Assembly: GCA_018302125.1 (NCBI GenBank)
Contig: JAGWAC010000024.1
Span: 1-44,331, forward strand
Source: Candidatus Woesearchaeota archaeon
Lineage (GTDB): Archaea; Nanobdellota; Nanobdellia; SCGC-AAA011-G17; JACPIM01
Direction: 5' to 3'
DNA length: 44,331 nucleotides
Shown: positions 549-5,289 of the stretch, in pieces
Layout: each line of letters begins with the position of its first letter
How positions within the stretch are numbered: position 1 is the stretch's first letter
Notes under the pieces: generated by a model
Database searches by the model: none
What the model saw: the letters and a program-made list of their open reading frames with translations, nothing else
Told to the model about the DNA's origin: nothing
Translations under genes and position numbers: made by a program

Positions 549-1202
549 ATGCTTAAAAAGAATAATAACTCTGTAAAGAGGATGTTTACAAAAAACAAGT
601 TTATCTCAAAAGAAAAAAATCAAGGTAATCAAAGCACCAATACTTGGTCTTTAACAAAAGGACAAAATTTCACTACTTCTACTTTAAAAATAGAAGATGA
701 ACACCCAGATATAATAAAAAATATAAGAGTCTTAAAATTTATTCTTTTACCTCTTGAATATTGGTGTTTAAAAGTATTAATGAAAAAAGAATCTCCTTTG
801 TCTACTGGTTTTATTTATAATTGGCACTTAATTGAAATAGCGGAAAAATCTTTTGAATCTGTTACATTATCCGTAGATGATAAAACAGAGTTATGTAGTT
901 TAATTGGAGCTAAATTTTTAGACAATGAACTTAATAAAAAGTTAAATGATACTGTAAAAATTACAGAAGCCAATTATCGTGAAATTGAAAAATTATTAAG
1001 GAGTAAAAAAATAAAATTTCATAGTTATAAACTTATTTTACAAACATTAGAAAGATTAGAAAATTGGGGTCTTTTAAAAAGAAGATACCCAGAAAAAGTT
1101 TCTAAAATAAATTTCTATTGGATAATTAACCCACAATTCTATTTAAAATACGGAAAACAATTAGAAGAATTATTTAAAGAAGAAAATAAATCTACTTCTT
1201 AA
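549..1202 (+). CDS. hypothetical protein, possible winged-helix region in C-terminal half
   Basis: 217-aa ORF; accessory-element context. Confidence 0.5.
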   Translation: MLKKNNNSVKRMFTKNKFISKEKNQGNQSTNTWSLTKGQNFTTSTLKIEDEHPDIIKNIRVLKFILLPLEYWCLKVLMKKESPLSTGFIYNWHLIEIAEKSFESVTLSVDDKTELCSLIGAKFLDNELNKKLNDTVKITEANYREIEKLLRSKKIKFHSYKLILQTLERLENWGLLKRRYPEKVSKINFYWIINPQFYLKYGKQLEELFKEENKSTS

Positions 1203-2460
1203 ATTTACCATAAGCAGTTACAAATTTACTTATTAACTCTGGGTCTGTTTGTTTTAAATATTCACAAAAACTAATTAATATTTTTTGTTCATCTTCCATT
1301 TTATTAATATCATTTATTCTTTGTCTATCCAAAGGTCTTTTACATTGCTTACAAAATTCATCAGTAAAACCATTTTGAATATTACAAAAAATACATAATT
1401 TCGTTTTAGGTGTAAATTGTTCATAACCATTTTCTGCTTTTATAATTCCCTTTTTAATTAATTCTATATTAAATGTATCTTTCTGTGTTGATAAATTATA
1501 AGTTTGTAATTGGTCTGTAGAATGCCAACCAGCCAAATGCATTATTGTTAAGTCACTATCCCCCCTCAATAACCTAAAAGTAATTCCATTTCTTTTTAAA
1601 GAATAACATGTTACGGGTTTATTTATTCCTAAACTTTTACAAGCTAATCTTATTTGATTGTTAATTGCTGATGGGGTCATTTGTTTTCCAAAAGTTTTAT
1701 CACTTGTAGAAATAAAAAGAAAACAATCCTTATCATTTTTCTTCGGGTGCTTTTCTAACCACTTAATAAGATAAGGCAAACTATCAATTATTTGCATTTC
1801 TTTAATACCTTCTTTTCCGTGAGAAGAAACAGATAATCTTGCATAATTATCCAATATTTTAACATCTTTTATTCTTAAATAAAGAATTTCTTGTGGTCTT
1901 CCTAAAGATTCAAATGATACAGCTAAATAACATTGCATCAGAGGATTATTACTAAAGAAGCTTACAATTTGTTCATATTCTTCCCATTCAAGTTTATCTT
2001 CTCTTGCTTTTTGCCTACTTTTATCTGCTCTAAATTTAAAAGAATTTGCTAATTTGAATTGTTCACTTTCTTCTCCAAATAAAATCTTAAAAATATAACT
2101 TTTGTCTTTAAAGTAATCTTTTTTAGATCTATCATTAAATTGTTTGTTAGCATAAAGAATTGTGTTTTCCCAGTCTTGTTTTTGCAATAATTTTATATCT
2201 TTTTTACAGATATAAGTGATAATTTTCAGTGATTTTATGATTCTACGTCTAAATACATAGCTTTTATCATATAAATCAAAATAATCAATTAATTTTCTAA
2301 AATACTTAAGATTTACTTTATTCTGAACATAATATTTGCTATTATGAGAATGCTTTTCTCTTTCTTCTGGTTTTAACAGAAGCTTATCCAAGTTATTTGC
2401 TTCTTTTTCATACTTGGTTTTATTATCATAAATATCATTTTCAGCCATTAACCACACCAA
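1192..2460 (-). CDS. tyrosine recombinase/integrase with C-terminal zinc ribbon
   Basis: Catalytic-type motifs GRPQEILYLRIKDV, YSLKRNGIT, HLAGWHSTDQLQTYN (Tyr nucleophile) plus CIFCNIQNGFTDEFCKQC. Confidence 0.85.
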   Translation of the reverse strand: MVWLMAENDIYDNKTKYEKEANNLDKLLLKPEEREKHSHNSKYYVQNKVNLKYFRKLIDYFDLYDKSYVFRRRIIKSLKIITYICKKDIKLLQKQDWENTILYANKQFNDRSKKDYFKDKSYIFKILFGEESEQFKLANSFKFRADKSRQKAREDKLEWEEYEQIVSFFSNNPLMQCYLAVSFESLGRPQEILYLRIKDVKILDNYARLSVSSHGKEGIKEMQIIDSLPYLIKWLEKHPKKNDKDCFLFISTSDKTFGKQMTPSAINNQIRLACKSLGINKPVTCYSLKRNGITFRLLRGDSDLTIMHLAGWHSTDQLQTYNLSTQKDTFNIELIKKGIIKAENGYEQFTPKTKLCIFCNIQNGFTDEFCKQCKRPLDRQRINDINKMEDEQKILISFCEYLKQTDPELISKFVTAYGKFKK

Positions 2461-2510: not shown

Positions 2511-2656
2511 TCCCCGCCGGCGGATTCGAACCACCAACCACTCGGGTTCAGCTGTCTGTTATTCATCCTTAGTTTTCAACTATGTCTAACAGCGAATTTA
2601 TCTACAGCCGAGAGCTCTACCATTGCTCTCCCCTAAGGGATTTGAGCTAGACGGGG
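2511..2656 (-). tRNA. tRNA-Tyr(GUA) with two introns (D-loop, ~2623-2641; anticodon loop, ~2547-2601)
   Basis: Acceptor CCCCGTC/GGCGGGG, discriminator A, T-arm GGTGG-TTCGAAT-CCGCC, anticodon stem CTCGG/CCGAG, loop CTGTAG; C1-G72 typical of archaeal tRNA-Tyr. Exact boundaries of the anticodon intron uncertain. Confidence 0.85.
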
Positions 2657-2665
2657 AATGATAAA

Positions 2666-3154
2666 TTAATCACAATTAATGTTTTTAAGTATATTGGTTT
2701 TTAGAATTTTGTGTTTTTTTCTTGGATAAAAATATGTGGCTTTATCATAGCATTTATCATAGATAATACTGCTTTCATGTTTATTTAAATTTAAGACATA
2801 ACATGTCTTTCTTTTTTCTATCTTAGATTTACATTTTATAAATAACTTTGAAAGTAACATTTTAATATCCATAAGGAATAAATAATAACCAGAACTTATA
2901 TGAACTGTTCCTTGTGTAATATGATCATCACCATCAATTACACCCCCAATAAAACTTGCAATATTTTTATTAGAAGAATTTATTATTCTAGGAACTCTAG
3001 CTGTTAAAGATTTATTTCCTATCGGCATATTAAATTTCTTATTTAAACAATTACTATAAAGTGCGCTATTATCGTGTTTTGTTGGTCTTCTGCCTAATTG
3101 TTTTTCTAATTTCTTAACATCCATAATTAATTTCTCTTTTTCAGATTTAGACAT
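2666..3154 (-). CDS. LAGLIDADG-type homing endonuclease-like protein (single motif)
   Basis: Motif IASFIGGVIDGDDHI followed by alpha/beta core-like sequence; 162 aa. Confidence 0.65.
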   Translation of the reverse strand: MSKSEKEKLIMDVKKLEKQLGRRPTKHDNSALYSNCLNKKFNMPIGNKSLTARVPRIINSSNKNIASFIGGVIDGDDHITQGTVHISSGYYLFLMDIKMLLSKLFIKCKSKIEKRKTCYVLNLNKHESSIIYDKCYDKATYFYPRKKHKILKTNILKNINCD

Positions 3155-5022: not shown

Positions 5023-5137
5023 GCCCTGGTAGTGTAGTCGGCTATCATCCGGCCCTGTCGGAAACTTTTAAAAGTTTCTAAAAAGGCTAGAAGTTTATAG
5101 AAAGGCCGGGACCCGGGTTCAAATCCCGGTCAGGGCG
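5023..5137 (+). tRNA. tRNA-Asp(GUC) with 42-nt intron at 37/38 (5061-5102)
   Basis: GCCCTGG/TCAGGGC acceptor, G73, T-arm CCGGG-TTCAAAT-CCCGG, anticodon stem CGGCC/GGCCG; BHB: CTGT/ATAG central helix, bulges CG^G and AA^A, inner AAACTT/AAGTTT. Confidence 0.93.
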
Positions 5138-5139
5138 TT

Positions 5140-5289
5140 GGGCCGGTAGCTCAGGTTGGCAGAGCACTTGAATATTATGCTAATAAAGCTAAGCTAAATA
5201 TTGGTGAAGCTTTTAACCCTTGGAAACTTTGAGAAAAAGTTTCAAAAAAAGAGACCAAGGGGTCGAGGGTTCAAATCCCTTCCGGCTCG
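5140..5289 (+). tRNA. tRNA-Lys(UUU) with two introns (5171-5208 and 5216-5253)
   Basis: Acceptor GGGCCGG/CCGGCTC, D-arm GCTC/GAGC, T-arm GAGGG-TTCAAAT-CCCTT. Only removal of both introns restores CTTGG-CTTTTAA-CCAAG. Confidence 0.9.

Follow-up and report, generated by a model that had tools for sequence, protein, structure and literature searches.

The tRNA-Tyr locus

The window (the whole stretch of DNA that was analysed, 44,331 nt of a Candidatus Woesearchaeota archaeon) carries on its minus strand a tRNA-Tyr(GUA) gene with two introns and, directly upstream of it, the remnant of a homing endonuclease gene that covers part of the putative tRNA promoter. The original prediction for this locus dealt with a 19-nt insert in the D-loop and was silent on both the anticodon-loop intron and the decayed endonuclease gene that abuts the tRNA. 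The principal features are the following.

2511-2656, minus strand: tRNA-Tyr(GUA) gene, called by ARAGORN on the joined exons, with a C1-G72 pair and two introns
2623-2641, minus strand: D-loop intron (predicted), 19 nt, between tRNA positions 15 and 16, a site that is empty in relatives
2547-2601, minus strand: anticodon-loop intron, 55 nt, at 37/38, with a conserved K-turn hairpin
2666-3154, minus strand: remains of a LAGLIDADG homing endonuclease gene, 162 aa, with 9 nt between its stop codon and tRNA-Tyr
2682-2693, minus strand: TATA-like element of tRNA-Tyr, TATACTTAAAAA, placed by comparison with relatives and presumed to act as promoter

Upon removal of both introns, ARAGORN calls tRNA-Tyr(gta), a regular tRNA of 72 nt with all four stems paired, which bears out the earlier expectation of a normal D-arm in the product. 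The C1-G72 pair is an archaeal feature of tRNA-Tyr, and A15 and U48 allow the usual Levitt pair. The same program misreads the unspliced gene as tRNA-Val, miscalls it as tRNA-Thr if the anticodon intron alone is removed, and recognises tRNA-Tyr with an anticodon-loop intron if the D-loop insert alone is removed. Run on the 44,331-nt window as it stands, it called zero tRNAs, and Rfam at the gathering score likewise misses this gene. Because AA is present on both sides, the boundaries of the D-loop intron are ambiguous by 1-2 nt, with no change to the product. An intron-free second tRNA-Tyr, against which the original prediction had cautioned, was sought in the archaeon's own genome (829 kb, 96.9% complete) by pattern and by covariance model, and no second tRNA-Tyr was found. 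Since this is the sole copy detected, the gene must work, and the 19 nt must be either removed or tolerated.

Other genes of the neighbourhood may be recorded here. A tyrosine-recombinase-type integrase gene (window 1192-2460, minus strand) starts approximately 50 nt past the 3' end of tRNA-Tyr, a placement that resembles that of elements integrated at tRNA genes; an attachment repeat, in the form of a further copy of the tRNA-Tyr 3' end, was sought across the window and not found. Two adjacent tRNA genes on the plus strand (5023-5137 and 5140-5289), each exceeding the length of an intron-free tRNA, lie directly before RNA polymerase genes, and many of the tRNAs detected in this genome are likewise long. 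The RNA polymerase gene of the window has its closest relatives in Woesearchaeota.

The splice motif of the D-loop intron

Within the first part of the gene, the elements of the predicted splice motif are arranged as follows.

2644-2647, minus strand: GCTC, 5' strand of the D-stem (positions 10-13) and of the central helix, from the predicted fold and comparison
2625-2628, minus strand: intronic GAGC, 3' strand of the central helix, from the predicted fold and comparison
2629-2640, minus strand: inner helix TCCC/GGGA with loop TTAG, from the predicted fold

On the minus strand the order is GCTC (2647-2644), AA^A, TCCC (2640-2637), TTAG, GGGA (2632-2629), GAGC (2628-2625), AA^T and GGTAGAGC, exactly as the original prediction had drawn it, and both a reading of the sequence and the predicted fold agree with that layout. 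Free folding of the pre-tRNA over its full length predicts GCUC-AAA-UCCC-UUAG-GGGA-GAGC, that is, central helix, 3-nt bulge and inner helix. The proposal that the D-stem strand itself serves as the central helix of a D-loop intron in tRNA-Tyr is supported by this fold and by inserts at the same position in relatives, and the intronic GAGC (2625-2628) rivals the exonic GAGC (2614-2617) for pairing in the D-stem. The description of the motif has to be revised. Bulges of 3 nt had been described on both sides; that at the 5' site stands, but it is the only bulge in the predicted pre-tRNA fold. The motif had also been called a perfect bulge-helix-bulge (BHB), but the outer helix is missing, as positions 8-9 (UA) lie opposite positions 18-19 (GG) and are unpairable. 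Because the 3' splice site is without helices on both sides, the motif is not a strict canonical BHB but a relaxed one, with a central helix, one flanked bulge and the other splice site in a loop.

The insert nevertheless has the attributes of an EndA-type intron: a regular tRNA upon removal, a 4-bp exon-intron helix (GCTC/GAGC) and an EndA gene in the same genome. It is close to certain, on the strength of sequence comparison, that the 19 nt constitute a spliced intron of this type, and excision in vivo very probably takes place. The length had been placed at the low end of those known; archaeal tRNA introns, however, are reported to span 11-129 nt with medians mostly of 12-25 nt (PMC4090602), and the shortest insert at the same position in a relative is 17 nt, so that 19 nt is an ordinary length for an archaeal tRNA intron.

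EndA of this genome and of the order

G000:C25:15176-15655 (L099): EndA gene

The source genome possesses one EndA gene, of 195 aa, in which the family's Tyr, His and Lys motifs are present; a second EndA subunit was sought in this genome up to E 10 and not found. A single EndA gene is also the rule in the order (95 of the 96 genomes where the family was found). Among solved structures, the alpha subunit of Nanoarchaeum equitans is its closest relative; a conserved Lys lines up with Lys161 in the ARMAN-2 loop, and the copies read share a C-terminal Trp. No EndA gene was found in the intron-bearing genomes G032 and G044, probably owing to genome incompleteness. According to a review, efficient cutting of relaxed motifs is confined to EndA of the (alpha-beta)2 and epsilon2 types (PMC6379350). 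With relaxed or otherwise non-canonical introns common in the order, its lone EndA may possibly represent an exception to the narrow specificity of single-type EndA.

The anticodon-loop intron

The 55-nt intron at 37/38 belongs to a widespread type, a covariance model of this region (R1) matching 81 of the 103 genomes of the order. In an alignment of 40 sequences (A1), a 6-bp basal stem shows double changes at every pair and is paired in 93.8% of cells, and the covariation score of the whole structure is 0.516, as against 0.220 for shuffled alignments. Adjacent to the stem are an invariant 5' GA and a 3' UGA, which is the arrangement of a K-turn. In the source archaeon, the 3' end of the intron (CAGCTG) pairs with exon CGGCTG (positions 29-34) and leaves U35 unpaired; across A1, this pairing holds in 98.8% of cells. 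C/D guides built into tRNA-Trp introns are known. In H/ACA guides of archaea, 5-6 nt separate the pseudouridylation pocket from the K-turn above it (PMC7991803). Some H/ACA-like guides have no lower stem, and U35 of tRNA-Tyr in Sulfolobus is modified by an H/ACA guide that acts in trans (PMC4652768). Given the K-turn, the pairing adjacent to U35 and these precedents (PMC7991803, PMC4652768), it is plausible that the anticodon intron acts as a built-in H/ACA-like guide for U35. However, neither a left guide strand nor an ACA box was recognised in the intron, and the protein enzyme for pseudouridine 35 (aPus7/TruD family) occurs in 78 of the 103 genomes, this one included; both observations count against a guide. 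Loss of aPus7/TruD as a correlate of the K-turn was likewise not seen, the family being retained in those 78 genomes, and a match of the intron to the sR39 C/D-box family was set aside at 12 bits against a cut-off of 50.

Inserts at 15/16 and empty sites in relatives

The 103 genomes of the order were searched for the D-loop motif and for tRNA-Tyr, the latter by pattern and with a covariance model that covers the anticodon region. By a pattern-based reading of D-arm states in what are nearly all metagenome assemblies, an insert at 15/16 occurs in at least 11 tRNA-Tyr genes of the order, in eight families, with lengths of 17-36 nt. The central helix of these 11 has all four pairs in ten and three of four in one, and the inner helix is always present. 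In total 14 inserts at 15/16 were collected, 12 of them in tRNA-Tyr (one from another order), one in tRNA-Asn and one in tRNA-Thr. Their sequences are unrelated, while the central helix is complete in 13 and has three of its four pairs in the remaining one, and the inner helix is found in 14 of 14. As these inserts share a helix despite unrelated sequence, the D-loop motif is not a product of chance; for the same lack of relatedness, recent spread of one intron is without support.

Most tRNA-Tyr genes of the order are without a D-loop insert. The uninterrupted first 24 nt of tRNA-Tyr in G060 are identical to the joined exon of the source archaeon, and the same-family relatives G001 and G002 lack the insert. 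Within a single genus, G029 has the intron and an endonuclease gene, whereas G027, G028 and G030 have neither the intron nor the upstream gene of that subfamily. Together, the conserved motif and the empty sites argue strongly, by comparison, for an intron that is spliced and that is gained and lost over time.

Interruptions elsewhere were also recorded. The D-loop introns at 15/16 in tRNA-Asn of G020 (L201) and tRNA-Thr of G049 (L202) have no endonuclease gene upstream. Eight tRNA-Tyr loci (L106, L120, L127, L143, L094, L097, L204 and L215) have inserts in the T-arm, variable loop, anticodon loop or anticodon stem, and that of G001 (L204) has three inserts within one gene.

The endonuclease gene upstream of tRNA-Tyr

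The protein encoded upstream of tRNA-Tyr belongs to LAGLIDADG_3 with the homing endonuclease associated repeat and is related to I-DmoI. In relatives the enzyme is approximately 265-305 aa when complete and carries two LAGLIDADG motifs, ITDGH and IDGDG. The gene in the source archaeon is judged to be decayed because some 94 residues are missing in frame, the first catalytic motif among them, and the second reads DGDD instead of the DGDG of relatives. The TATA-like element of tRNA-Tyr sits inside the last codons of this gene, and in relatives too the TATA region of tRNA-Tyr coincides with the last endonuclease codons (e.g., ...AACCAATATCTTTAAATAG), so that the gene abuts the promoter rather than replacing it.

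Inspection of the flanks of intron-bearing genes located a gene of the same type in the same place in G032, G053, G056, G077, G088, G099 and G029, and in the other-order locus L200, where the same pair of intron and endonuclease is present. The copy of G029 is interrupted by a contig end, with a fragment on a second contig. A profile of the subfamily (A2), built from members that it then retrieved, gave a wide score gap among the 103 genomes: ten hits at E<=4e-42 and the rest at 7e-30 or worse, the second-contig fragment of G029 aside. All ten members lie directly upstream of tRNA-Tyr, and the neighbouring tRNA-Tyr bears the D-loop intron for eight of them. The other two are from one genus and stand beside intron-free tRNA-Tyr genes; the copy of G091 has an in-frame stop, and that of G092 is apparently intact.

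Viral contigs yielded only distant relatives of the subfamily, at most 34% identical, and the resolution of the endonuclease tree is too low for a judgement on transfer. A duplicated 5' half of the tRNA upstream of the endonuclease gene, considered as a trace that would remain if the unit had inserted as a whole into the D-loop, was sought at nine loci and not found. The arrangement also departs from a mobile intron with an internal endonuclease, the intron being 19 nt long and the gene lying outside it, upstream of tRNA-Tyr.

Co-occurrence of intron and endonuclease gene

Among 75 tRNA-Tyr genes of the order, 8 have both intron and endonuclease gene, 3 the intron only, 2 the endonuclease only and 62 neither (Fisher 4e-7); that is, an endonuclease gene stands beside 8 of 11 intron-bearing genes versus 2 of 64 intron-free ones. 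When endonuclease labels were shuffled within families, the observed value was reached in 10 of 200,000 permutations, and a cruder count from flanks alone gave 1.5e-5. As in two-part homing, a free-standing gene is adjacent to the interrupted gene, and the two parts are jointly absent at 62 of 64 empty sites. Against a homing link, the intron-bearing tRNA-Tyr genes of G038, G044 and G096 have no endonuclease gene within 1.5 kb, and G092, with an intact gene and no intron, is the main awkward case. The association points to a selfish genetic element, with the insert as its mark and perhaps also its shield.

A model for the intron and the endonuclease

Taken as a whole, these comparisons favour, at a probability of roughly 0.6, a reading in which the spliced 15/16 intron and the upstream, tRNA-Tyr-dedicated endonuclease gene form a two-part selfish element. 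In this model, a homing endonuclease gene would have inserted directly upstream of tRNA-Tyr, against the promoter, and its product would cut the uninterrupted D-arm of intron-free tRNA-Tyr genes, although its target may lie elsewhere in the tRNA gene. The mini-intron would break up that target and thereby protect the host copy, and repair from the occupied copy would transfer the intron and the adjoining endonuclease gene together. Insertion into the D-loop would be rendered harmless by RNA splicing, in which each cut by EndA would follow the second A of its site (AA^A at one, AA^T at the other) and the exons would be ligated, presumably by RtcB, so that positions 10-13 could pair with positions 22-25 and the D-arm form. 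In the source archaeon the endonuclease would have decayed while the intron stayed, and the states seen (both parts; the intron with a decayed gene; the intron alone; neither part) may represent a cycle of gain, decay and loss. DNA cleavage at the D-arm, protection and co-conversion are steps that we infer from the sequence comparisons, and the homing link is much less sure than the splicing of the 19 nt. A more specific formulation, to which we would give slightly less than even odds, is that of a tRNA-targeting archaeal gene drive in two detached parts, a promoter-side endonuclease and a 17-36-nt immunising, spliceable insert that may be left behind as a scar.

Three other explanations were weighed, which in part overlap with the two-part element and with one another. 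The endonuclease gene might occupy the tRNA promoter region, next to a D-loop intron, by coincidence. Archaea are well known for non-canonical tRNA introns and for tRNA genes with several introns (PMC4090602), tRNA genes of the order are also interrupted in the T-arm, variable loop and anticodon stem, and D-loop inserts occur without an endonuclease in G038, G044 and G096 and in the Asn and Thr genes. However, the restriction of the subfamily to sites upstream of tRNA-Tyr, and the way in which it tracks the D-loop intron within families, make coincidence unlikely. Alternatively, the enzyme might target its own insertion point upstream of tRNA-Tyr, the intron being a by-product of repair and not a protective mark. 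The 3' end of the endonuclease gene always falls on the TATA region, which would accordingly be its own empty site, and the intron sequences differ everywhere, as such a scenario might predict; yet an exact insertion at 15/16 that always gives a spliceable motif requires selection at that site, and this alternative is considered distinctly improbable. Finally, it is very hard to credit that tRNA-Tyr is a pseudogene or keeps the 19 nt in a working tRNA, for although ARAGORN and Rfam at gathering score both miss the gene, the searches of this genome, with its rated completeness of 96.9%, turned up no other tRNA-Tyr, the exon stems are all intact with an A15-U48 Levitt pair possible, and the motif is preserved in a dozen unrelated inserts.

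The proposed two-part element may be compared with several known systems. Relaxed-BHB introns of the hBH and HBh' kinds, from Crenarchaeota and Nanoarchaeota, share with the 15/16 intron the short length, the location outside 37/38, the 4-bp central helix, the 3-nt bulge at the 5' site and the presence of a second intron in the tRNA (PMC4090602, PMC6379350). Position 15/16 is absent from those named in the review text (20/21, 22/23, 25/26 and others, an open list; PMC4090602, PMC6379350), and unlike the usual relaxed-BHB introns it occurs repeatedly with a homing endonuclease gene outside the intron; the source genome, moreover, has only one detected EndA gene. In Pyrobaculum oguniense, the enzyme encoded in the 16S rRNA intron Pog.S1213 cleaves locus 1205 where this is intron-free, and thereby secures that the short hairpin intron Pog.S1205 is co-converted (PMC4496867), so that there, as is proposed here, a nearby LAGLIDADG enzyme acts on a locus occupied by a short BHB intron; however, the Pog.S1213 gene lies inside a neighbouring intron of the same rRNA gene, whereas the present gene is a free-standing one that abuts the promoter of a tRNA gene on the upstream side, and its cleavage activity is putative. 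Mobile archaeal rRNA introns of the I-DmoI type share the protein superfamily (I-DmoI was matched) and BHB splicing, but hold the LAGLIDADG gene internally, whereas here it lies outside an intron of 17-36 nt. F-CphI and psbA of cyanophages reportedly exhibit collaborative homing, by a free-standing endonuclease and a nearby intron. As at tRNA-Tyr, the free-standing gene there stands beside a gene with an intron at the presumed target, but that intron is a group I intron in a phage protein gene, as opposed to a protein-spliced BHB mini-intron in an archaeal tRNA. No published description of such a tRNA-Tyr intron/endonuclease element was found in a literature search whose coverage excluded most subscription journals.

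These observations bear on the origin and placement of non-canonical archaeal tRNA introns. An intron at one defined position tracks an adjacent nuclease gene in several families, with the nuclease full, decayed or lost, and this tracking makes it possible to test directly whether a tRNA intron can originate by homing and act against a nuclease. If the model is correct, a scar left after decay of the enzyme would explain the origin of some of the scattered non-canonical tRNA introns, and the splicing enzymes would gain a further role, that of tolerating a selfish element in an essential tRNA gene.
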